A DNA stretch of 64,000 nucleotides from a virus: positions 186,001 through 250,000 of the IMG/VR virus record IMGVR_UViG_3300032236_002285; one strand, 5' to 3'. Made by a program: the position numbers and the translations under genes. Below the pieces are notes generated by a model that saw only the letters and a program-made list of their open reading frames with translations, made no database searches and had not been told where the DNA came from. Shown here in pieces: positions 26,466 through 53,533 of this stretch. The first letter of the stretch is position 1. Each line of letters begins with the position of its first letter.

Positions 26466-26895
26466 CAAAAAAGCTTATTACGAATACTTTGTCATTGAAG
26501 ACTTTGATGCTGGTATTATGCTTTTAGGAAGTGAAGTAAAGTCAATCAGAGAAGGTAACTTGAGTTTAATTGATTGTTTTGCTTACATTTCAGATGGTGA
26601 ACTTTGGTTAAAAAATATGAAAGTGGCTCGATATAAACAAGTCCATGTTGCTGAAAAACATGAAGAAAATCGAGACAAAAAATTACTTCTCAATAGAAAA
26701 GAAATAAATAAAATTGAAAAGTTACTTCAAGATAATGGAACAACTATGGTTCCTTTAGAAGTATTCACAGCACATAATCGAATTAAAGTTAAGATTGGTG
26801 TTGTTAAAGGTAAGAAGCTATATGATAAAAGATCCACTATTAAAGAGAGAGATATAAAAAGAGAGATAAACAGAGAAAGTAATTTTAATATATAA
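26449..26895 (+). CDS. smpB: SmpB (tmRNA-binding protein)
   Basis: 148 aa with the SmpB barrel signature: NKKAYYEYFVIEDFDAGIML, LGSEVKSIREGNLSLIDCFA, the loop GELWLKNMKVARY, and a basic C-terminal tail KGKKLYDKRSTIKERD that enters the ribosome A site in known SmpB. With tmRNA it rescues stalled ribosomes. A phage smpB is uncommon. No standard tmRNA gene is seen in the window; the structured RNA at 29846 is a possible but unproven partner. The LAGLIDADG gene follows directly. Confidence 0.93.
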   Translation: MKITTNKKAYYEYFVIEDFDAGIMLLGSEVKSIREGNLSLIDCFAYISDGELWLKNMKVARYKQVHVAEKHEENRDKKLLLNRKEINKIEKLLQDNGTTMVPLEVFTAHNRIKVKIGVVKGKKLYDKRSTIKERDIKREINRESNFNI

Positions 26896-32457: not shown

Positions 32458-32565
32458 ATGAGAACAAATAATACACATAAACATTTTAGTAAATCGAATA
32501 AGTGGTTTAGCAACCAGTTCGGTACTGAAAGTGTATTGCTCTCAAATAAGATGTTAAAAGTCTAA
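32458..32565 (+). CDS. Leader peptide 1 (His/Phe/Trp/Lys/Asn-rich, 35 aa)
   Basis: The peptide contains THKHFSKSNKWFSNQF: two His, three Phe, one Trp, several Lys and Asn. The tRNA genes that follow are His, Phe, His, Phe, Trp, Trp and then four Lys and one Asn. The frame ends 20 bases before an intrinsic terminator. Codons 20-23 hold AGTTCGG-T-ACT (32516-32526), which can pair with AGTCCGAACT (32588-32597) in the terminator's 5' arm. A ribosome stalled at the His/Phe/Trp codons would leave this antiterminator free. A regulatory rather than functional peptide is inferred. Confidence 0.75.
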   Translation: MRTNNTHKHFSKSNKWFSNQFGTESVLLSNKMLKV

Positions 32566-32584: not shown

Positions 32585-32619
32585 AAAAGTCCGAACTTCA
32601 AAAAAGTTCGGACTTTTTT
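32585..32619 (+). terminator. Attenuator terminator of tRNA block 1
   Basis: A 13-bp stem, AAAGTCCGAACTT/AAGTTCGGACTTT, is followed by TTTTTT. It stands between leader 1 and the first tRNA-His; its 5' arm has the competing pairing to 32516-32526. Confidence 0.88.
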
Positions 32620-32628
32620 GTTTTATAT

Positions 32629-32714
32629 GGTGTCGTTATTGTTAACGGAGAGTCGAAAGACGAGCATCTGGCTCTGTGAAAGCCAGGGTACGGGTTCAAA
32701 TCCCGTACGACACC
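32629..32714 (+). tRNA. tRNA-His(GUG) with enlarged D region
   Basis: Acceptor GTGTCGT/ACGACAC with an extra encoded G-1 opposite C73, anticodon loop CTGTGAA and T-loop TTCAAAT. The D region is ~32 nt instead of ~19 and includes a GTC-GAAA-GAC hairpin. Confidence 0.8.
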
Positions 32715-32720
32715 CAAGAA

Positions 32721-32796
32721 GGAACCTAAGCTAATCAGGTGAAAGCACTGGACTGAAAATCCAGGGAGCCCGGATCGTTACCGGGAGGTTCCACCA
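32721..32796 (+). tRNA. tRNA-Phe(GAA)
   Basis: Acceptor GGAACCT/AGGTTCC with encoded CCA, anticodon loop CTGAAAA. The T-loop is ATCGTTA instead of the near-universal TTCRANY. Confidence 0.85.
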
Positions 32797-32804
32797 AAAT
32801 AAAT

Positions 32805-32880
32805 GGTGTATGTAGCTCAATCGGTAGAGCGTCGGTTTGTGGAGCCGAAGGTAGCGGGATCGTAACCCGTCATTCACCCA
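32805..32880 (+). tRNA. tRNA-His(GUG), second copy
   Basis: G-1 plus acceptor GTGTATG/CATTCAC (one T-T mismatch), C73, anticodon loop TTGTGGA. T-loop ATCGTAA, the same odd form as the preceding tRNA-Phe. Confidence 0.82.
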
Positions 32881-32883
32881 AAA

Positions 32884-32955
32884 GGAGACTTAGCTGAGAC
32901 GGTTTAGCGTTTGGTTGAAGCCCAAAAGAGGTCGGTTCGATTCCGGCAGTCTCCA
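32884..32955 (+). tRNA. tRNA-Phe(GAA), second copy
   Basis: Acceptor GGAGACT/AGTCTCC, anticodon loop TTGAAGC, normal T-loop TTCGATT. Confidence 0.87.
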
Positions 32956-32961
32956 CAACAT

Positions 32962-33032
32962 ACGTCATACAGACAAGGTGTCGGTCAGGTCTCCAAAACC
33001 TCGACGGTGGGGTTCGATTCCTCAATGGCGTG
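32962..33032 (+). tRNA. tRNA-Trp(CCA)
   Basis: Acceptor ACGTCAT/ATGGCGT with one G-T pair, anticodon loop CTCCAAA, discriminator G as usual for Trp. Confidence 0.82.
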
Positions 33033-33038
33033 CTAAAT

Positions 33039-33110
33039 ACGGGTATGGTGTAATGGCTAACATTTTGGTCTCCAAAACCAAAGATCTTGATTCGAATTCA
33101 GGTACCCGTG
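33039..33110 (+). tRNA. tRNA-Trp(CCA), second copy
   Basis: Acceptor ACGGGTA/TACCCGT, anticodon stem-loop TTGGT-CTCCAAA-ACCAA, discriminator G. Confidence 0.9.
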
Positions 33111-33174
33111 CTAAAAGGTTCGTGTCTTTTTTTGATGTTTCGGACTTAATATATAGAATAAATAAGTTTTATAT

Positions 33175-33717
33175 ATGAAAGAGGAAATATTAAAGTTAAG
33201 AAGTGAAGGTAAGACTTTTAATGAAATAAAAGAAATACTAAAATGTTCAAAATCTACAATATCTTACCATTGTAGTGATGAACAAAAAGAAAAATCTAGA
33301 AATAGAACTAGAAAAAGAAGAGAGAATTTAATTCACTCTAAACTTGAAAGTTTTATCTATAGAAAAGAAAAAAATGTAAAAGAAGGAATAAGAAAGTTTC
33401 AAAAAACTGACTCAAATTCTAAAGGAAGGGTTAATAGTAATATTAAAACAACATTTAATTGGGTTGATGTTTTGAATAAGTTTGGTGAAAATACATATTG
33501 TTATTTGTCTGGAGAGAAAATTAACCTATATGAAGATAACTACAACTTTGACCATATTATACCAGTTAGTAAAAATGGTAGTAATAGTTTAGAAAACTTA
33601 GGAATTCTACACGAAAAAGTAAATAGAATGAAATCTGACTTATCACCAGAAGAATTAATAGAATGGTGTAAAAAGATTTTAGAGTTTAATAATTATAAAA
33701 TAGAAAAATTAGATTAA
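33175..33717 (+). CDS. HNH homing endonuclease inside the tRNA array
   Basis: 180 aa. An N-terminal helix-turn-helix (GKTFNEIKEILKCSKSTISY) is followed by a basic region and an HNH nuclease: CYLSGEKINLYEDNYNFDHI, then IPVSKNGSNSLENLGILHEK. DHI gives the metal-binding His pair and the NLGILH strand the Asn/His. A TTAATATATAG motif lies ~30 bases upstream. It splits the array between tRNA-Trp and the Lys block and probably spreads by cutting arrays that lack it. Confidence 0.87.
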   Translation: MKEEILKLRSEGKTFNEIKEILKCSKSTISYHCSDEQKEKSRNRTRKRRENLIHSKLESFIYRKEKNVKEGIRKFQKTDSNSKGRVNSNIKTTFNWVDVLNKFGENTYCYLSGEKINLYEDNYNFDHIIPVSKNGSNSLENLGILHEKVNRMKSDLSPEELIEWCKKILEFNNYKIEKLD

Positions 33718-33721
33718 GAGT

Positions 33722-33751
33722 ATGAAAACTAAATTGAAATATAAACGCTAG
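33722..33751 (+). CDS. Possible Lys-rich mini leader (9 aa)
   Basis: The frame reads MKTKLKYKR, four Lys in nine codons, and ends at the base of a hairpin. Four tRNA-Lys genes follow. This mirrors the other leader peptides, but the frame is very short and no host-type promoter is adjacent, so the call is tentative. Confidence 0.35.
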   Translation: MKTKLKYKR

Positions 33752-33779
33752 GCAACGATTCGAGTCACGGATCGTTGCC
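33751..33779 (+). promoter_or_regulatory. Hairpin before the tRNA-Lys block
   Basis: A perfect 9-bp stem GGCAACGAT/ATCGTTGCC overlaps the stop of the mini leader. There is no T-run after it, so it is not a standard intrinsic terminator; it could be a processing site or a pausing hairpin. Confidence 0.5.
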
Positions 33780-33791
33780 CTCAACAACAAT

Positions 33792-33864
33792 GATTCCGTA
33801 GCTCAATTGGTGGAGCTTCCGGCTTTTAACCGGAAGGATGTGAGTTCGAACCTCACCGGAATCA
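33792..33864 (+). tRNA. tRNA-Lys(UUU)
   Basis: Acceptor GATTCCG/CGGAATC, anticodon stem-loop TCCGG-CTTTTAA-CCGGA, normal short variable loop. Confidence 0.92.
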
Positions 33865-33871
33865 CTAAAAT

Positions 33872-33958
33872 GGTTCTGTCGCTTAGCGGCTATAGCAACT
33901 GGCTTTTAACCAGTAGAGATAATGTTCTCAACCGTGGGTTCGAGTCCCACCAGGACCA
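33872..33958 (+). tRNA. tRNA-Lys(UUU) with long class-II-like variable arm
   Basis: Acceptor GGTTCTG/CAGGACC, anticodon stem-loop ACTGG-CTTTTAA-CCAGT. An extra hairpin GAGATAATGTTCTC stands in the variable region, where tRNA-Lys normally has 5 nt. Confidence 0.85.
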
Positions 33959-33966
33959 CTAAAAAC

Positions 33967-34050
33967 ACTCCTGTCGCTCAGAGGTCGAGAGCAACTGGCT
34001 TTTAACCAGTAGACGCAAGTCCATCGTAGGTTCGAATCCTACCAGGAGTA
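33967..34050 (+). tRNA. tRNA-Lys(UUU) with long variable arm, second copy
   Basis: Acceptor ACTCCTG/CAGGAGT; anticodon arm identical to the preceding gene; variable hairpin GAC-GCAA-GTC. Confidence 0.85.
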
Positions 34051-34054
34051 CTAA

Positions 34055-34137
34055 CGATTCGTCGCATAGTGGCTATTGCACCTGACTCTTAATCAGGCGA
34101 AGAAATTCAATCGTGGGTTCGAGTCCCACCGGGTCGA
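34055..34137 (+). tRNA. tRNA-Lys(CUU) with long variable arm
   Basis: Acceptor CGATTCG/CGGGTCG (two G-T pairs), anticodon stem-loop CCTGA-CTCTTAA-TCAGG, variable hairpin CGAAGAAATTCAATCG. Confidence 0.82.
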
Positions 34138-34145
34138 CAAAAAAT

Positions 34146-34260: not shown

Positions 34261-34404
34261 GGAGAGAGTAGCTCAGTTGGTTAGAGCACGTATTCATTCT
34301 CTGACAAGGATTCTCTGATTATGGTCAACATAATTAGTAGTGATGTTAAGAGATACTTCGGTCTGTTAAACCCGTGGTCGTAGGTTCGAGTCCTACCTCT
34401 CTCC
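34261..34404 (+). tRNA. tRNA-Asn(GUU) with ~69-nt insertion between D-arm and anticodon
   Basis: The D-arm (GCTC/GAGC) and T-arm (GTAGG/CCTAC) are normal. The acceptor is 8 bp, with an extra G opposite C73 as in tRNA-His. Between GAGCACG (ends 34290) and GGTCTGTTAAACCC (starts 34360) lie ~69 extra bases. Removing them restores a perfect anticodon stem CGGGT/ACCCG. The insertion carries TCTCT/AGAGA and ends TACTTC, like two other genes here. Confidence 0.75.
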
Positions 34405-34432
34405 CAAATATTAGATTATTAAAAAAATAAAA

Positions 34433-35065
34433 ATGGAAATAAAATTAGAAAGTACTTACAAAGGAACAAGGATTCTTTTTAAGGACAGCGCTAAAAATAA
34501 AAGAAAGTTACTAAATAGCATGATTGATATTTTAGAATCATATGGTTATCAGGAAATAATGATACCTATTATTCAAAAACAAGAAACATTTCAGTCAAAA
34601 GTTGGTGATGAAAACAGAAATATGATGTTTAACTTCAAAGACAGAGGTGATAGAGATTTGTGTTTATCTCCAGAGTACACGGCAATTGTTCAACAATTAT
34701 CAAGTGATAAAATGAAATATGATAAAGATGTAAAAATGTTTTATATCGGTGAATGTTTCAGAGGAGAAAATACACAATCTGGAAGATGGAGACAATTTAC
34801 ACAATTTGGAGTTGAAGTTATAAATCCAAGTAAAGATTATACTGATGAAATGGTTGAAATTGCCAGTAAACTAATTGAGTTAGTTACAAAAAATTATGAA
34901 GTAAATCTGGAAACTACAAGAGGACTTGACTACTACAAAGGTGGAAAAGGATTTGAAATTGCTTGTCCCGAATTAGGATCATCTAAGCAAATTTGTGGAG
35001 GTGGTTCATATGATGGTGGTATTGGATTTGCTGTTGGTGTAGATAGATTACTATTATGTAAATAA
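34433..35065 (+). CDS. Miniature histidyl-tRNA-synthetase-like protein, 210 aa
   Basis: Class II HisRS core motifs are present in order: motif 1 region (KRKLLNSMIDILESYGYQEI), ATP/amino-acid segment (LCLSPEYTAIVQQL), motif 2 (IGECFRGENTQSGRWRQFTQ), the His-specific RGLDYYKGGKGFE, and motif 3 (GGSYDGGIGFAVGVDRLLL). Normal HisRS has ~420 aa. The insertion domain between motif 2 and RGLDYY and the whole C-terminal anticodon-binding domain are missing. It lies in the array with two tRNA-His and may charge them, bind His like HisZ, or sense tRNA (inference). Confidence 0.85.
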   Translation: MEIKLESTYKGTRILFKDSAKNKRKLLNSMIDILESYGYQEIMIPIIQKQETFQSKVGDENRNMMFNFKDRGDRDLCLSPEYTAIVQQLSSDKMKYDKDVKMFYIGECFRGENTQSGRWRQFTQFGVEVINPSKDYTDEMVEIASKLIELVTKNYEVNLETTRGLDYYKGGKGFEIACPELGSSKQICGGGSYDGGIGFAVGVDRLLLCK

Positions 35066-35074
35066 AAATAAATT

Positions 35075-35202
35075 GGGGATGTAGCTCAGTGGTAGAGAAA
35101 ACTATCTCTTTTGAAAATTTACCTCATAAGAGTGTTGATTGAGAGAGTTACTTCGTATATTTTGAAATTATAAGGTCGTGGGTTCGAATCCCACCATCCC
35201 CA
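35075..35202 (+). tRNA. tRNA with ~65-nt insertion before the anticodon arm (identity uncertain)
   Basis: Acceptor GGGGATG/CATCCCC, T-arm GTGGG-TTCGAAT-CCCAC and D-loop AGTGGTA are clear. After the D-arm (~35098) an insertion runs to ~35154. It contains AACT-AT-CTCT pairing AGAG-AGTT and ends TACTTC. The following anticodon arm TATAT-TTTGAAA-TTATA reads UGA (Ser); GAA or U-U-G readings are possible with other registers. Confidence 0.6.
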
Positions 35203-35211
35203 CAAAAAAGA

Positions 35212-35243
35212 TTTGGTAAATCAATAAAAAAGATTTACTTTTG
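35212..35243 (+). promoter_or_regulatory. Promoter of tRNA block 2 (Ser/Arg)
   Basis: TTTGGT at 35212-35217 and TACTTTTG at 35236-35243, then TTAATATATA at ~35264 before the leader ATG. Confidence 0.75.
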
Positions 35244-35281
35244 TAAAAACAAAGAAAAGAAAATTAATATATAATAAAGTT

Positions 35282-35359
35282 ATGAAAACAATTATGCTTA
35301 CATCGAAGTCGTCAAGTAGTCGCTCGTCAAAACCGAGTGAGGTTCGATCGTATTCATAA
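35282..35359 (+). CDS. Leader peptide 2 (Ser-rich, 25 aa)
   Basis: The peptide includes SKSSSSRSSKPSEVRSYS: ten Ser and two Arg in 25 codons. The next genes are tRNA-Arg(ACG) and four tRNA-Ser. Its codons (TCG, TCA, AGT, CGC, CGA) are ones read by those tRNAs, and TCG, CGC and CGA look rare in neighbouring genes. AGGTTCGA (35340-35347) late in the frame can pair with TCGAACTT (35389-35396), the terminator's 5' arm, with one G-T pair. Stalling in the Ser run would favour this antiterminator. Confidence 0.78.
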   Translation: MKTIMLTSKSSSSRSSKPSEVRSYS

Positions 35360-35382
35360 TATTCGTATAAAGATATTTTATG

Positions 35383-35417
35383 AAACCCTCGAACTTAATG
35401 TTTGAGGGTTTTTTTGT
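35383..35417 (+). terminator. Attenuator terminator of tRNA block 2
   Basis: Stem AACCCTC-GAAC/GTTT-GAGGGTT followed by TTTTT, between leader 2 and tRNA-Arg. Confidence 0.87.
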
Positions 35418-35426
35418 TTTATATAT

Positions 35427-35501
35427 GGTTCTATAGTTTAAATGGATAAAACACTCGGCTACGAACCGAGAGACGTGAAGGTTCGAATCCTTCTGGAACT
35501 A
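35427..35501 (+). tRNA. tRNA-Arg(ACG)
   Basis: Acceptor GGTTCTA/TGGAACT with two G-T pairs, anticodon stem-loop CTCGG-CTACGAA-CCGAG, T-loop TTCGAAT. Confidence 0.9.
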
Positions 35502-35507
35502 CAAATT

Positions 35508-35598
35508 GGAGAAGTCAACCGAAATTGGTATCGGCCTAGTCTTGAAAACTAGTCATCGGCGATGAGTTGGTGTGTCGGTTCGAGTCCGACCTTCTCCG
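35508..35598 (+). tRNA. tRNA-Ser(UGA)
   Basis: Acceptor GGAGAAG/CTTCTCC, G73, anticodon loop CTTGAAA, long variable arm as expected for Ser. Confidence 0.92.
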
Positions 35599-35603
35599 CA
35601 ACC

Positions 35604-35689
35604 GGAAGGAGTCCGAATGGACGAGGAACTTGTCTTGAAAACAAGCGGCTGTAAAAGGTTTGGGGGTTCGATTCCCTCTTCTTCCGCCA
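35604..35689 (+). tRNA. tRNA-Ser(UGA), second copy, CCA encoded
   Basis: Acceptor GGAAGGA/TTCTTCC, G73 and encoded CCA, anticodon loop CTTGAAA, class II variable arm. Confidence 0.88.
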
Positions 35690-35691
35690 AT

Positions 35692-35777
35692 GGAGAGTAA
35701 AGTAGCCAGGGTGCTACCACCGCCTGCTAAGCGAGTGGCCCATTAATTTGGGTGTGATTCGAGTTCACTGCTCTCCG
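35692..35777 (+). tRNA. tRNA-Ser(GCU)
   Basis: Acceptor GGAGAGT/GCTCTCC, G73, anticodon loop CTGCTAA, class II variable arm CCCATTAATTTGGG. Confidence 0.87.
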
Positions 35778-35789
35778 CAAAAGATAACT

Positions 35790-35876
35790 GGAGAGTTGTC
35801 CGAGTGGTTTATGGAGCACGCTTGGAAAGCGTGTGTACTCGAAAGGGTACCGAAGGTTCGAATCCTTCACTCTCCG
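35790..35876 (+). tRNA. tRNA-Ser(GGA)
   Basis: Acceptor GGAGAGT/ACTCTCC, G73, anticodon stem-loop ACGCT-TGGAAAG-CGT region reading GGA, variable arm TACTC-GAAA-GGGTA. Confidence 0.9.
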
Positions 35877-35891
35877 CAAAAAAATTATATT

Positions 35892-36292: not shown

Positions 36293-37801
36293 TTAACTAA
36301 CCATTGATATCATAAACCAAGATCCTCCTCCATTTTTAAGAATTGTTATTGAACCATAATTACTATTTATGGTTTTTGCACCAGTTGAACCATCAATAGT
36401 TTCACCTAAATGTGGAGTTATAGTAATATTATTAGAACTTGCATTACCCGCTTCGTCTTTTATAATAACTATTTTACCATCTGTTAAAGTAGCAACACTT
36501 GCTAATGTTATACTAACAGATGTAGCAGTAGTATCTACCGGCCAATACTCTGGTTGAATTGATGGTAGTGCTAGAGGTGTTAATATAAAGCCAGATGGTG
36601 CTGAGATTGATGGATTAACAATAGGTCCGCCACTAACACCTGAAACACCTGAAGTACCGGATGAACCAGATGATCCGGAAACACCAGTTGATCCAATTTT
36701 ACCATCGTAATTCCAACTTATAGTATAAATATCTTCATCTATCAAAGTTACATTTGCTGGAGTAACCGATGATGCTGAACCTGATATTGTAAGATATGAA
36801 TAACCACCTGATACATTTTTAGCAACACTACCTCCTGTATTTTTGTTAATGGTATAGATACCTATAGGATCATTTGCTCCAAATCTTTTCAATTGAATAT
36901 AAGCCACTCTTCCTCTAAAAACTTGGTTGTATAAATCATCTAATAAATAATAATAGTCTGTTCCAACATAATCAAGTTGACCTATTGTTATTTGAGTTAA
37001 TGTTGTTACGTCAGTTGTATCAGTGTGAAAATGGTTAGGGTTATAAAGAGAACTTGAATACTTCCATCTACCTGAAAGTGCAGCACCATCATTACCACTT
37101 ACTCCTGATGAACCGGATGAACCCGATACACCACTTGTGCCTGAACTACCTGATGTGCCTGAACTACCAGATGAACCTGATGAACCTGATGAGCCAGACT
37201 GACCCATAGTTACCCAACTAATTGAATAGTTTTTACCACCTATTGCCATTCCATTTGATGAAACCTTAGTACAGTTAAAATTCCAAGAAGAACCCATATC
37301 TAAACCATTATTAACTTGGTAAATAACATAGTTATTAGCAGCATCGATCTGAGTTATCTTCATATATCCTTGATTTGGATAAGAAGTTAAAAAACTTCCT
37401 AAAGATGCTAACCAACTTGTGGCATCACCGCTTTCACTATAATAGTTTATATTAACATTATTACTTACTTGAGAAAAATCTGTATTACCTAAATTATATT
37501 GACCATTAATAGAATTGCTACCATAAACCCATCTTAGTGTATTAGAGCCATCAGCGCCACTTAAACCCGAAGTTCCTGATGAACCATTAGGACCAGTAGC
37601 ACCAACATGACCTGAGGTACCTGATGAACCTGATGAGCCAGATGACCCACTTCCACCACCACCTGAACCTATTACGGTAACATTACCTGATGTATCTTTT
37701 TGTTTAAGTACTCCGTCTAGATCTAGACCCATTAAAATACCTGATGACGGAGTTGCTGCTCCGGACATATCAATATAAGTAGAAAGTGAAATTAAACTCA
37801 T
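36293..37801 (-). CDS. Collagen-like tail-fibre protein, 502 aa
   Basis: Three blocks of Gly-x-y-type repeats (GSSGSSGSSGTSG; GSSGTSGVSGSSGSS) separate globular beta domains, as in trimeric phage fibres. The N-terminus MSLISLSTYIDMSGAATPSS may attach to the tail. The C-terminal domain (IVIIKDEAGNASSNNITITP) ends ILKNGGGSWFMISMVS, a common phage fibre-tip ending. AATATATAG lies upstream of ATG. Likely a receptor-binding or accessory fibre. Confidence 0.8.
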   Translation of the reverse strand: MSLISLSTYIDMSGAATPSSGILMGLDLDGVLKQKDTSGNVTVIGSGGGGSGSSGSSGSSGTSGHVGATGPNGSSGTSGLSGADGSNTLRWVYGSNSINGQYNLGNTDFSQVSNNVNINYYSESGDATSWLASLGSFLTSYPNQGYMKITQIDAANNYVIYQVNNGLDMGSSWNFNCTKVSSNGMAIGGKNYSISWVTMGQSGSSGSSGSSGSSGTSGSSGTSGVSGSSGSSGVSGNDGAALSGRWKYSSSLYNPNHFHTDTTDVTTLTQITIGQLDYVGTDYYYLLDDLYNQVFRGRVAYIQLKRFGANDPIGIYTINKNTGGSVAKNVSGGYSYLTISGSASSVTPANVTLIDEDIYTISWNYDGKIGSTGVSGSSGSSGTSGVSGVSGGPIVNPSISAPSGFILTPLALPSIQPEYWPVDTTATSVSITLASVATLTDGKIVIIKDEAGNASSNNITITPHLGETIDGSTGAKTINSNYGSITILKNGGGSWFMISMVS

Positions 37802-45309: not shown

Positions 45310-45387
45310 ATGACAACTATTACTAACATAGCGTATTATTATGAGGGAGAGCGTAGCTCAAACGTCAGACTAATGTCTATGTCGTAA
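45310..45387 (+). CDS. Leader peptide 3 (Tyr/Glu-rich, 25 aa)
   Basis: The peptide includes AYYYEGERSS. The following genes are a Tyr-like tRNA, tRNA-Glu, a second Glu-anticodon tRNA, tRNA-Tyr and tRNA-Glu(CUC). GTCAGACT (45364-45371), inside codons 19-21 just after the YYYEGER stretch, is perfectly complementary to AGTCTGAC (45415-45422) in the terminator. The leader lies 34 bases from the promoter -7 box. Stalling at TAT or GAG codons should free the antiterminator and allow read-through into the Tyr/Glu tRNAs. Confidence 0.8.
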   Translation: MTTITNIAYYYEGERSSNVRLMSMS

Positions 45388-45409: not shown

Positions 45410-45441
45410 AACCCAGTCTGACTTTCAGACTGGGTTTTTTG
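45410..45441 (+). terminator. Attenuator terminator of tRNA block 3
   Basis: AACCCAGTCTGA/TCAGACTGGGTT with a short loop, then TTTT. Its 5' arm has an alternative 8-bp partner in leader 3. Confidence 0.9.
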
Positions 45442-45546: not shown

Positions 45547-45618
45547 GGTCCTGTCGACTAATGGTCAGGTTACAAGACTTTCAATCTTGAGATGCGGGTT
45601 CGATTCCCGTCAGGACTA
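45547..45618 (+). tRNA. tRNA-Glu(UUC)
   Basis: Acceptor GGTCCTG/CAGGACT, anticodon stem-loop CAAGA-CTTTCAA-TCTTG, T-loop TTCGATT, short variable loop. Confidence 0.9.
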
Positions 45619-45625
45619 CAAATAT

Positions 45626-45711
45626 GCTACGGTATGCAAACCGGAATAAGCGACCAGACTTTCAATCTGGACATCGAAAGATGTGTGCGGGTTCGAGCCC
45701 CGTCCGTAGTA
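45626..45711 (+). tRNA. tRNA with Glu(UUC) anticodon and long class-II variable arm
   Basis: Acceptor GCTACGG/CCGTAGT, anticodon stem-loop CCAGA-CTTTCAA-TCTGG, variable hairpin CATC-GAAA-GATG, T-arm GCGGG-TTCGAGC-CCCGT. A long variable arm is not normal for Glu. Confidence 0.8.
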
Positions 45712-45718
45712 CAAATAA

Positions 45719-45802
45719 GGGAGAGCGCCAACGTTGGAGAGTTGGGCTTGTCTGTAAAACAAGTGGCTTACGCCTGAGTGGGTTCGATTCCCACCTCTCC
45801 CA
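45719..45802 (+). tRNA. tRNA-Tyr(GUA)
   Basis: Acceptor GGGAGAG/CTCTCCC, A73, anticodon stem-loop TTGTC-TGTAAAA-CAAG region reading GUA, class II variable arm, T-loop TTCGATT. Confidence 0.92.
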
Positions 45803-45843
45803 CAAAAAATTAAACAAAAAAAATGAAAAGTTGAAAGTGAAAG

Positions 45844-46026
45844 ATGATAATTATGTTGGTAGTTATCTTTTTATCAAAACCAGTAATGTCACAGAACATT
45901 ATTAAATACCAACAAAAAACAAAAATTGATTTGAGATTAAATAAGTCAATTGAAAACCAAAAGGTTCTTTTTAAGAAAACTAAATTAGAATCTGATAACT
46001 TTGAAATTAAAATTAGTCACGATTAG
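45844..46026 (+). CDS. Small secreted protein with signal peptide, 60 aa
   Basis: MIIMLVVIFLSKPVMSQ is a short Sec signal peptide (hydrophobic core, cleavage likely after VMS or MSQ). The mature ~43 residues are basic and polar (YQQKTKIDLRLNKSIENQKV). It lies inside the Tyr/Glu tRNA block and should be co-transcribed. No family is recognised. Confidence 0.55.
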   Translation: MIIMLVVIFLSKPVMSQNIIKYQQKTKIDLRLNKSIENQKVLFKKTKLESDNFEIKISHD

Positions 46027-46103
46027 CTGATTAATAAAAAGTTTAGAATCAGGTTTACTTTATGTTTAGACATGAAAGAATTTTTTACCAAAGAGTAAAA
46101 AAT

Positions 46104-46176
46104 GATGCTATCGACTAATGGTTTAGGTCGCCATCCTCTCAAGGTGGAAATACGGGTTCGAATCCCGTTAGCATTA
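46104..46176 (+). tRNA. tRNA-Glu(CUC)
   Basis: Acceptor GATGCTA/TAGCATT, anticodon stem-loop CCATC-CTCTCAA-GGTGG, T-loop TTCGAAT. Confidence 0.85.
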
Positions 46177-46194
46177 CAAAAAATTAAACAAATG

Positions 46195-46225
46195 TTTGGA
46201 TATTAAAAAAGTATCCTTATCTTTG
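46195..46225 (+). promoter_or_regulatory. Promoter before tRNA-Glu(UUC)
   Basis: TTTGGA at 46195-46200 and TATCTTTG at 46218-46225. The tRNA begins 17 bases later, with no leader peptide. Confidence 0.72.
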
Positions 46226-46241
46226 TAAAAGAATAAAAAAT

Positions 46242-46313
46242 GGTCCCGTCGTCTAATGGTTAGGACAATGCCCTTTCACGGCATAGATTTCGGTTCAAAT
46301 CCGTGCGGGACTA
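46242..46313 (+). tRNA. tRNA-Glu(UUC), further copy
   Basis: Acceptor GGTCCCG/CGGGACT, anticodon stem-loop ATGCC-CTTTCAC-GGCAT, T-loop TTCAAAT. Confidence 0.88.
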
Positions 46314-46320
46314 CAATAAA

Positions 46321-46397
46321 AACAGATAACTCCGGTATGGTCTCAATCATTACTTAGAACCGGGCTTTGGAAAGTTACAAGTTGAGATTCTGTTTTT
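46321..46397 (+). ncRNA. Compact RNA pseudoknot with terminator-like end
   Basis: CCGGT (46332) pairs ACCGG (46359), interleaved with TCTCAAT (46341) pairing GTTGAGA (46381), so an H-type pseudoknot. An outer stem AACAGA/TCTGTT (46321/46389) closes it, followed by TTTT. It lies between tRNA-Glu and tRNA-Tyr. It may be a regulated terminator or a riboswitch-like element; ligand unknown. Confidence 0.5.
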
Positions 46398-46402
46398 TAT
46401 AT

Positions 46403-46485
46403 TGGAAGGTGGCCGAGTGGTTAATGGCGCTTGACTGTAAATCAAGTCTCTTGCGAGTACGGGGGTTCGAATCCCTCCCTTCCAA
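46403..46485 (+). tRNA. tRNA-Tyr(GUA), second copy
   Basis: Acceptor TGGAAGG/CCTTCCA, A73, anticodon stem-loop CTTGA-CTGTAAA-TCAAG, class II variable arm, T-loop TTCGAAT. Confidence 0.92.
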
Positions 46486-46550
46486 CAAAAATAAAAAAAA
46501 TTAAAAGGGAAGACAAAACTTTTTATATATACATTAATATAATTAAAACG

Positions 46551-46631
46551 ATGAAAAATTTAACTAACATATCAACAGCAATCATAGGAGGCGGCGCGGG
46601 AGCGAATGTCACTGGCTGGACTATGTTATAA
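46551..46631 (+). CDS. Leader peptide 4 (Gly/Ala-rich, 26 aa)
   Basis: The peptide includes AIIGGGAGANVTGW, with codons GGA GGC GGC GCG GGA GCG. The downstream genes are four tRNA-Gly (one in two pieces) and three Ala-anticodon tRNAs or tRNA parts, preceded by an Ile(UAU)-type tRNA-like gene (the leader also has two ATA codons). CACTGGCTGG (46610-46619), directly after the Gly/Ala run, pairs with CCAGTCAGTG (46659-46668) in the terminator: ten pairs including one G-T. A phage-type TTTTATATATAC motif lies ~25 bases before ATG; no TAnnTTTG box is seen. Confidence 0.8.
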   Translation: MKNLTNISTAIIGGGAGANVTGWTML

Positions 46632-46655: not shown

Positions 46656-46688
46656 AACCCAGTCAGTGAAAATTGACTGGGTTTTTTT
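46656..46688 (+). terminator. Attenuator terminator of tRNA block 4
   Basis: AACCCAGTCA/TGACTGGGTT with loop GTGAAAAT and a following T-run. Its 5' arm has the alternative partner in leader 4. Confidence 0.9.
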
Positions 46689-46836: not shown

Positions 46837-46908
46837 GCGGGTATCGTATAGTGGCTATTACTCCTTCCTTCCAAGTAGGAGACGTCGGTTCGATTCCGGC
46901 TACCCGCT
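46837..46908 (+). tRNA. tRNA-Gly(UCC)
   Basis: Acceptor GCGGGTA/TACCCGC, U73 typical of Gly, anticodon loop CTTCCAA, T-loop TTCGATT. Confidence 0.88.
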
Positions 46909-46916
46909 CAAATTTT

Positions 46917-46991
46917 GGGGTCACATGTACCAAGGCTAGGCGATGATGCTTTGCAAGCATCGTGTGGTGAGTTCGATTCTCACTGGCTCCA
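46917..46991 (+). tRNA. tRNA-Ala(UGC)
   Basis: Acceptor GGGGTCA/TGGCTCC with two G-T pairs, anticodon stem-loop GATGC-TTTGCAA-GCATC, T-arm GTGAG-TTCGATT-CTCAC. Confidence 0.87.
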
Positions 46992-47010
46992 CAAAAAATG
47001 AATAGTAAAA

Positions 47011-47178
47011 ATGACTATATTCAAATATTTAGTAGATGGAAAACTTTACTTCTTGTACAATGGAGTAAATGGATATATTGCTATACCATTTGAGCATAGT
47101 GGAAATACTATATCAAATCCAAATCTTGATGAATTTGTACCAGTGAAAATGGGCAATGGTTCTGATGGATTTGTATAA
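47011..47178 (+). CDS. Small hypothetical protein within tRNA block 4, 55 aa
   Basis: MTIFKYLVDGKLYFLYNGVN is followed by GYIAIPFEHSGNTISNPNLD and a short polar end. The KYLxxGKLYxLY beginning is one I associate with small Bacteroidetes proteins of unknown function. Located between tRNA-Ala and tRNA-Gly and so co-expressed with them. Confidence 0.5.
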   Translation: MTIFKYLVDGKLYFLYNGVNGYIAIPFEHSGNTISNPNLDEFVPVKMGNGSDGFV

Positions 47179-47181
47179 AAT

Positions 47182-47253
47182 GCGAAAGTCGTATAGTGGC
47201 TATTATATCAGCTTGCCAAGCTGAGGACGGCAGTTCGATTCTGCTCTTTCGCT
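47182..47253 (+). tRNA. tRNA-Gly(GCC)
   Basis: Acceptor GCGAAAG/CTTTCGC, U73, anticodon stem-loop TCAGC-TTGCCAA-GCTGA, T-loop TTCGATT. Confidence 0.9.
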
Positions 47254-47261
47254 CCAATATG

Positions 47262-47297
47262 CCGGATGATCCACCGTTGAATCGCGGTGCCGGCTCC
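47262..47297 (+). other. Double-stem RNA hairpin between tRNAs
   Basis: GCCGG...CCGGC encloses CACCG/CGGTG with loop TTGAATCG. It is GC-rich in an AT-rich region, with no T-run. It may be a processing signal or a tRNA remnant. Confidence 0.4.
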
Positions 47298-47298
47298 A

Positions 47299-47372
47299 GG
47301 GGAATTAGCTCATTTGGCTAGAGCGCTTGTCTGGCAGACAAGAGGTGACGAGTTCAAATCTCGTATTCTCCA
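47299..47372 (+). tRNA. tRNA-Ala(GGC)
   Basis: Acceptor GGGGAAT/ATTCTCC, anticodon stem-loop CTTGT-CTGGCAG-ACAAG, T-loop TTCAAAT. Confidence 0.9.
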
Positions 47373-47379
47373 CTAATAA

Positions 47380-47459
47380 GCGGGTGTCGTATAGTGGCAC
47401 GTAGTAGATTATGCCGGTCTTCCAAACCGGAGATGTGAGTTCGATTCTCATCACCCGCT
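47380..47459 (+). tRNA. tRNA-Gly(UCC) with enlarged D-loop
   Basis: Acceptor GCGGGTG/CACCCGC, U73, anticodon stem-loop CCGGT-CTTCCAA-ACCGG. The D-loop has ~10 extra bases (CACGTAGTAG) compared with tRNA-Gly at 46837. Confidence 0.88.
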
Positions 47460-52723: not shown

Positions 52724-53533
52724 TTAACACCAGTTATTACCCTCTGATGATACTAAAGGTGTGTAAATTGTAAATGTAGCAGGGAAGTAAAATGTTCCGG
52801 CTAAACTAGGGTTTACCGGATAACCTGGTCCACTATTTAAGTACCAATCATTATAAGCGGTATCAACCGCGCTAATAAGAAATTGATTATAACTAGAATT
52901 TACTCCAATTCTAACAAGTCCAGTACTTATAGAACTACCAGCACCCCAAGTTACGTTAAATATATAACCATCAGCATTTGTTCCTAAACTATTAGTGTTA
53001 AATATATTTGTAATTTCTGATAATTTTTGAGATGTTAATGCGTAATTAACAATTTGAAATATTATATTATCATTACCAGCTGAAATATATCCTAATAATC
53101 CATTAGTAGTAATTCCGCTACCAGTACCCAAAAGATTTGCGATGTCTGCTGTAGCTATTGTAAATGTAACTAAACCCCAAGAAGTCCAGTAACCATTATT
53201 ATTTAACCAAGTTTTAGCATCATCACCAGTTGTGAAATTTTGACCAGTAAGGTTATTTGCTTCTTCAAGAAAAGAAGCTTCTGTTAAAGTTGCTGATCTG
53301 CGAAAAGCAACATAAGCAAAAACACCATAAACCGGTGTGTGTTGGTCACCATTTAAATTAGGCTTAGCGATTACATATCCTATTGATTCATCTGGTCCAT
53401 TCCACCATTGTAATCCGGTTGAATCAAATCCAGCAATTGGTGTTCCAATTGCTAAACTTCCAACTTGGTCAGTTCCGGATATTGGCGCACCGGTGTTATA
53501 TGCGAAGGGTCTACTTACTTGAGGTCTTGACAT
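52724..53533 (-). CDS. Predicted virion structural protein, 269 aa
   Basis: MSRPQVSRPFAYNTGAPISG then GLQWWNGPDESIGYVIAKPN is a beginning I recall from structural proteins of marine and Bacteroidetes phages. Beta-rich, Gly/Asn-rich, no catalytic motif. The C-terminus FYFPATFTIYTPLVSSEGNN suits a jelly-roll or fibre part. It overlaps the next gene on the same strand by 23 bases. Confidence 0.6.
   Translation of the reverse strand: MSRPQVSRPFAYNTGAPISGTDQVGSLAIGTPIAGFDSTGLQWWNGPDESIGYVIAKPNLNGDQHTPVYGVFAYVAFRRSATLTEASFLEEANNLTGQNFTTGDDAKTWLNNNGYWTSWGLVTFTIATADIANLLGTGSGITTNGLLGYISAGNDNIIFQIVNYALTSQKLSEITNIFNTNSLGTNADGYIFNVTWGAGSSISTGLVRIGVNSSYNQFLISAVDTAYNDWYLNSGPGYPVNPSLAGTFYFPATFTIYTPLVSSEGNNWC

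Follow-up and report, generated by a model that had tools for sequence, protein, structure and literature searches.

Putative ribosome-mediated attenuators ahead of the tRNA operons of a huge phage

It has long been asked why the genomes of large phages should contain tRNA genes by the dozen. In one virus record of 476,236 bp there are 63 tRNA matches, almost all of which fall into a few clusters, and one of these clusters, a tRNA-Arg followed by four tRNA-Ser genes, is preceded by a short open reading frame (ORF) that is itself rich in serine codons. What might such an ORF do in front of the tRNAs that read its codons? The stretch of DNA that was analysed, here called the window, comprises 64,000 nucleotides (C1:186001–250000 of the record), and coordinates refer to the window unless another record is named. 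The evidence, which consists of ORFs, codon matching, frame specificity, terminators and competing pairings within the sequence, points to each tRNA operon of this phage being under the control of a ribosome-mediated transcription attenuator, a reading to which we give a probability of about 0.92. Translation of the leaders, stalling of ribosomes on them, coupling to RNA polymerase and the physiological trigger are what we infer from that evidence.

The serine leader and its operon

Leader ORF 2 (35282–35359, + strand, with its stop codon at 35357–35359) encodes MKTIMLTSKSSSSRSSKPSEVRSYS, a peptide of 25 amino acids of which 10 are serine. The serine codons are TCG (four), TCA (three) and AGT (three), alongside the arginine codons CGC and CGA, and the putative control codons TCG AAG TCG TCA AGT AGT CGC TCG TCA (Ser/Arg) occupy 35303–35329 (+). 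Downstream on the same strand lie tRNA-Arg(ACG) (35427–35502), two copies of tRNA-Ser(UGA) (35508–35599 and 35604–35689), a divergent tRNA-Ser(GCU) (approximately 35691–35777) and tRNA-Ser(GGA) (35790–35877). The tRNA-Ser(GCU) is not called by ARAGORN or Rfam; its predicted fold is nevertheless that of a tRNA whose variable arm is long, and the Ser leader of the huge phage LR745206 is followed by a Ser-GCU tRNA with the same layout. The original prediction, made from the letters of the DNA, had placed a 25-codon ORF with ten Ser codons ahead of one tRNA-Arg and four tRNA-Ser and had listed TCG, TCA, AGT, CGC and CGA as its codons; the coordinates and codons proved exact and the codon counts agree. 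It had also held that a peptide of this kind was very unlikely to arise by chance, and indeed leader ORF 2 has the highest Ser fraction among the 371 ATG-started ORFs of 15–45 amino acids in the 64-kb window (binomial P = 4.5e-6 per ORF). The codon-rarity check suggested at the time, when carried out on this window, gave a clear answer: TCG makes up 2% of Ser codons in the window compared with 4 of the 10 in leader 2, and CGC and CGA make up 2% and 3% of Arg codons, respectively. TCT and TCC, the codons of Ser(GGA), do not occur in leader 2 and are present in other leaders.

Between the ORF and the first tRNA lies an intrinsic terminator (35383–35411, +) with a 12-bp stem, a 5-nt loop and a U run. 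Its two arms are referred to as segments 3 and 4. Segment 2, the predicted 5′ arm of an antiterminator (AGGTTCGA, 35340–35347, +), pairs with segment 3 (TCGAACTT, 35389–35396) over 8 bp including one G-U, just as had been proposed. Upstream there is a putative promoter of Bacteroidota type (35213–35243, +), recognised from its sequence as a TTG at 35213–35215, a 20-nt spacer and TACTTTTG at 35236–35243. The −7 consensus of Flavobacterium is TAnnTTTG (PMC9723704), and for 40 of 58 leaders this motif is present in the 120 nt that precede them, mostly accompanied by a TTG at a suitable spacing; among random 120-mers, 11% contain the motif. A further element, the TTAATATATA box, lies at 35264–35273 (+). 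It stands shortly 5′ of many leader ATGs and likewise of ordinary phage ORFs on both strands, for example 4–22 nt before the ATG ORFs at 26885, 33146 and 62644 (+) and at 52727, 40366 and 29803 (-). The box is a general 5′ element of this phage, and its presence at ordinary ORFs fits with the leader ORFs sharing the mode of expression of other phage genes.

The surroundings of the operon have features of their own. It adjoins a gene (36293–37801, -) for a 502-aa protein with collagen-like GSSGSSGTSG repeats. Upstream, two tRNA-like genes (34261–34405, Asn-GUU, and 35075–35203) are enlarged by a long stretch of additional sequence that separates the D arm from the T arm; of these genes, the second is 81% conserved over its whole 131 nt in L062 (2110–2242), which indicates that the insert is kept. 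These genes possibly contain tRNA introns, or are unusual tRNAs.

Leaders in the same phage and its relatives

A leader was defined mechanically as an ATG ORF of 12–40 codons that ends 10–45 nt before an intrinsic terminator, which in turn lies no more than 250 nt from a tRNA. By this ORF–terminator–tRNA rule the 476-kb phage has seven leaders, whose operons carry tRNAs for His/Phe/Trp/Lys, Arg/Ser, Glu/Tyr, Gly/Ala, Asn/Ile/Leu/Val/Thr/Met, Asp/Pro and Gln. In addition to leader 2, three of them were mapped in the window, all on the + strand. Leader ORF 1 (32458–32565), which begins MRTNNTHKHFSKSNKWFSNQFG and contains His, Phe, Lys and Trp codons, is followed by a terminator (32586–32616) and by an operon of His, Phe, His, Phe, Trp, Trp and four Lys tRNAs (32628–34138) that is interrupted by an HNH endonuclease gene (33175–33717). 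Leader ORF 3 (MTTITNIAYYYEGERSSNVRLMSMS, Tyr/Glu codons, 45310–45387) has its terminator at 45410–45436 and precedes a Glu/Tyr tRNA operon (45547–46486), and leader ORF 4 (MKNLTNISTAIIGGGAGANVTGWTML, Gly/Ala codons, 46551–46631) has its terminator at 46656–46683 and precedes a Gly/Ala tRNA operon (46837–47459). The genes that would be regulated are mainly tRNAs; genes for amino-acid synthesis, import or charging, which are usual in attenuators, are not the rule here. Three operons of the phage nevertheless hold a synthetase, with genes for HisRS, GlnRS and LeuRS each lying 3′ of tRNAs for the same amino acid: GlnRS after the Gln tRNAs, LeuRS after the Leu-containing set and, downstream of the His/Phe/Trp/Lys tRNAs, a short histidyl-tRNA synthetase of 210 aa (34433–35065, +; Pfam tRNA-synt_His, 93 bits). 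No leader was detected by the rule for the Cys, one Met and the Leu/Arg (C1:385.6k) tRNAs of the same genome.

Within the first operon, the segment at 33722–33790 consists of a mini-ORF, MKTKLKYKR, and then a perfect hairpin without a U run, ahead of the four Lys tRNAs. The Lys-rich mini-ORF (approximately 33723–33752) was considered as an extra leader and set aside because its hairpin lacks the U run; it is further disfavoured by LR745206, where the Lys tRNAs come straight after Trp. A full Lys leader (MKTVNKNKKNKRVSLIR) with a terminator is found in L342. In the tRNAs at 32721 (Phe) and 32806 (His) of the window the T-loop reads ATCGTTA or ATCGTAA in place of TTCGANN, with loss of the usual A58, and the same change is seen at L016:3105, 3183, 3352 and 3430; L016 also has an endonuclease-like ORF, as judged by eye, inserted within a tRNA operon (2085–2880).

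Relatives were gathered through HisRS, GlnRS and LeuRS scans of IMG/VR together with LR756502 (642 kb) and LR745206 (635 kb), two huge uncultured phages that are the closest named relatives and whose HisRS is 86% identical to that of the window. In Al-Shayeb et al. 2020 (PMC7162821), phages as large as these two fall into the Mahaphage clade, for which Bacteroidetes hosts are predicted, and the leader-bearing relatives are of the Bacteroidota-infecting Mahaphage type and beyond. Together with this phage they provide 67 distinct codon-matched leaders in 21 records. The original reading of leader 2, as a Ser/Arg leader coupled to a switch between terminator and antiterminator, is supported and applies well beyond this locus. 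Where tRNA operons are merged or split in relatives, the leader codons are regrouped likewise. Thus L059 has a joint operon of Glu, Tyr, Gly, Ile and Ala tRNAs behind the leader MNTLIYIGYIAEGGYEAGSF; in L069, Cys has been added to a Leu operon with the leader MKNICRNTINNNLIINNNTLC; L363 joins His, Trp, Met, Ser, Asn, Arg and Ile behind MQSSIIHISNSMNWRRNSPNRSGM; and L010 joins Gln, Phe, Met, Thr, Val and Leu behind MKNLTNILFVMTLTVLFQFTQTELES.

The matching between leader and operon was quantified over the 67 leaders. In the ORF frame, residues corresponding to the leader's own operon are in excess by 0.274 (z 16.6; 0 of 20,000 shuffles as extreme; 66 of 67 leaders), compared with 0.002 and -0.036 in the remaining two forward frames (z 0.2 and -3.7) and -0.003 to 0.026 in the reverse frames (z -0.4 to 2.7). 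For every one of the 20 amino acids, leaders with the matching tRNA in their operon contain that residue at a higher frequency. The records are mutually related, so that P values from permutations across records are not independent, whereas tests within a record are; in these, the true pairing of leaders with operons was the unique best of 5,040 in each of G000, LR756502, LR745206, G012 and G013, which have seven leaders each, second best (2 of 5,040) in G008 and 1 of 720 in G007. Because the matching of residues is confined to the ORF frame, the leader ORFs are taken to be read by ribosomes; this frame specificity is an indirect sign of such reading, and the best available, and it counts indirectly against an untranslated frame, the outcome that would have overturned the original prediction. 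Rare codons are a feature of some leaders only: GGC and GCG are over-represented in the Gly/Ala leader, in addition to TCG in leader 2, but the leaders for Asn, Tyr, Asp and Gln rely on codons that are common.

The leader system is not general, being absent from the bacterial tRNA genes that were scanned and from some phage relatives. The same scan gave no match at 182 other tRNAs and a single match, without clear codon matching, at 87 Flavobacteriia tRNAs; it found no leader in the tRNA-bearing phage relatives L042–L045 and L047. G011 (451,956 bp) likewise has no leader, and in the stretches examined its tRNAs are scattered or loosely grouped. A DNA pattern for the Gln leader, run on viral contigs, was too loose and returned only noise. 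Other features of the tRNA arrays were seen in passing. In relatives, tRNAs with a CUA anticodon, called Pyl by ARAGORN, occur at L008:17166 and 17245, L060:1131, L071:1413 and L367:1416, and are possibly amber suppressors. L336 and L337, from the chromosome of Chryseobacterium sp. ZHDP1 (3.94–3.96 Mb), are dense phage-like tRNA arrays in a bacterial chromosome.

Competing RNA pairings and the proposed switch

Folding and pairing tests covered 45 leaders. In all 45, the segment that best complements the terminator's 5′ arm sits directly 3′ of the control codons, mostly in the second half of the ORF. This complement, segment 2, is stronger than in shuffled sequences (mean z -2.9; z < -2 in 32 of 45), and own-operon residues account for 45% of the peptide upstream of it and 14% downstream. 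When arms were swapped between leaders of G000, the mean 2:3 pairing energy went from -14.1 kcal/mol for a leader's own arms to -8.7 kcal/mol, and only 1 of 5,040 permutations was as good. An alignment of five Ser leaders revealed that columns 61 (segment 2), 115 (segment 3) and 122 (segment 4) co-vary, dividing the leaders into a G/C/G group and an A/U/A group, such that the segment 3 base stays paired both ways; in the row for the window a gap shifts the segment 4 base by one column. The change in segment 2 alters a Val to an Ile, which suggests that RNA pairing is what is kept there. The full-length Ser leader RNA is predicted to fold into a 1:2 hairpin plus the terminator. Prior to synthesis of segment 4, the RNA beyond the control codons is predicted to adopt the 2:3 antiterminator (-15.4 kcal/mol). 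With a ribosome placed on a control codon, the predictions sequester half or more of segment 3 in 45 of 45 leaders; with the ribosome at the stop codon, they do so in 0 of 45. A stricter folding rule, blind to segment 2, gave 0.69 against 0.43 for spacers that had been shuffled, so that the effect per leader is modest; the folding evidence by itself is hence supportive and not decisive, being weaker than the duplex and swap tests. The stop codon lies 19–37 nt from the hairpin (median 24; 67 leaders). Features of trp and his attenuators that are present here are a start-to-stop ORF between the promoter and the first gene, cognate codons, an intrinsic terminator and a predicted, mutually exclusive 2:3 antiterminator.

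On the attenuator reading, a ribosome would translate a leader ORF of 15–40 codons bearing codons read by the tRNAs encoded downstream, tRNAs that in some operons would also be charged by a synthetase encoded there. If charged tRNA were scarce, the ribosome would stall on the control codons (in leader 2, at 35303–35329 upon shortage of Ser or Arg), leaving segment 2 free to pair with segment 3, so that RNA polymerase would continue and the matching tRNAs would be made. If charged tRNA were plentiful, the ribosome would reach the stop codon (35357–35359) and cover segment 2, and the 3:4 terminator would halt transcription. Since the product tRNA would relieve the signal, this would amount to direct negative-feedback control of supply for each amino-acid group. 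Amino-acid starvation could be the trigger, as could the decay of host tRNAs once the host has been shut off or the cleavage of tRNAs by host defences, and the sequence is compatible with each. More tentatively, and with rather less than even confidence in the whole, the giant phage may sense charged tRNA pools group by group and restrict its replacement tRNAs and synthetases to those the host no longer has, having lost them, for instance, to tRNA-cleaving defence systems or to the phage's own shutdown of the host.

Which other explanations might account for these leaders? AT-rich DNA has many short ORFs, and a Ser-rich one might simply have come to lie next to a constitutive terminator; given its standing as the best of 371 ORFs, the z of 16.6 over 67 leaders, the co-variation of the Ser leaders and the near-empty scans of other tRNAs, coincidence can practically be dismissed. 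Many synthetase genes are controlled by T-boxes through a specifier codon, and the leader RNA might in the same way sense uncharged tRNA directly, with no peptide being translated. That is very improbable: the Rfam search listed no match to the T-box covariance model, the matching spans many codons per leader and is found in the ORF frame only, between ATG and stop, and the leader before the hairpin is shorter than a T-box stem I needs. The Rfam family His_leader (RF00514) scored 24.7 bits against a gathering cut-off of 49, with the alignment limited to the terminator part. We hold it just as improbable that the peptides are nascent-chain arrest peptides of the TnaC/Erm type that sense a small molecule and not codons. 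Short ORFs before terminators are found in that class too, but the leader peptides share no motif beyond a loose MKxLxNI start, and the match between residues and tRNAs is conserved and shifts with the content of the operon.

A different possibility accepts the attenuators as real and takes their main signal to be a general slowing or absence of translation, not a shortage of single amino acids. Of 45 leaders, only 16 have a predicted 1:2 protector hairpin of the classical kind (such a hairpin is also seen in the full-length Ser leader fold), so that a leader left untranslated is frequently expected to let transcription continue, a point against the main reading; untranslated RNA is predicted to sequester segment 3 in 30 of 45, and a global failure of translation would therefore open operons as well. 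Leaders with several amino acids, moreover, cannot distinguish between those amino acids. The codon sets are strongly operon-specific, however, which would be needless in a general sensor, and we consider this explanation unlikely.

Implications and relation to known systems

If the leaders work as they look, phage tRNAs would be made on demand and would not be a constant supplement, and the leader codons would reveal which shortage each operon answers; the ideas of codon compensation, host tRNA degradation and tRNA-cleaving defence would become directly testable. A viral set of attenuators that spans the amino acids would also be a ready-made set of codon-specific sensors of charged tRNA, and the relatives offer a natural experiment in evolution, where the fusion of operons can be traced together with the fusion of leader codons. 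Supply control that is virus-wide and proceeds amino acid by amino acid would, apparently, be unreported in the open-licence literature that was searched.

Leader-peptide attenuation is a classical mechanism. Likely examples upstream of Flavobacterium amino-acid biosynthesis operons have been reported (PMC9723704); for tRNA operons, or in phages, no report of it was found in the open-licence literature that was searched, and the word stem ‘attenuat’ is absent from the huge-phage paper (PMC7162821). Phage tRNA arrays that resist tRNA-cleaving defences through changes in the anticodon loop have been described (PMC10264068). There too host tRNAs are replaced by phage ones; that work concerns anticodon-loop changes, and a text search turned up neither leaders nor the regulation of phage tRNA transcription. 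The T-boxes of Bacillota synthetase genes resemble the phage leaders in that antitermination responds to the charging state of tRNA and acts on tRNA-charging genes, but the phage leaders have no T-box RNA, and it is the codons of a peptide ORF that would do the sensing.

In E. coli, the pheST leader (pheM) mediates attenuation of phenylalanyl-tRNA synthetase by sensing charged tRNA. As in pheST, the phage attenuators would sense charged tRNA and control the translation machinery, including synthetases in some operons; they differ in that the phage output is mainly tRNAs, such that the molecule sensed and the product would be of the same species. The closest likeness in architecture is to the trp, his and ilv attenuators, with a short ORF that appears to be translated, runs of cognate codons, competition between 2:3 and 3:4 pairings, and the genes lying downstream. 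The phage leaders would, in contrast, regulate viral tRNA operons and not biosynthetic genes, with several amino acids per leader and with a 1:2 protector predicted in a minority, and seven paralogous attenuators occur in a single genome, with those of relatives extending the set to all 20 amino acids.
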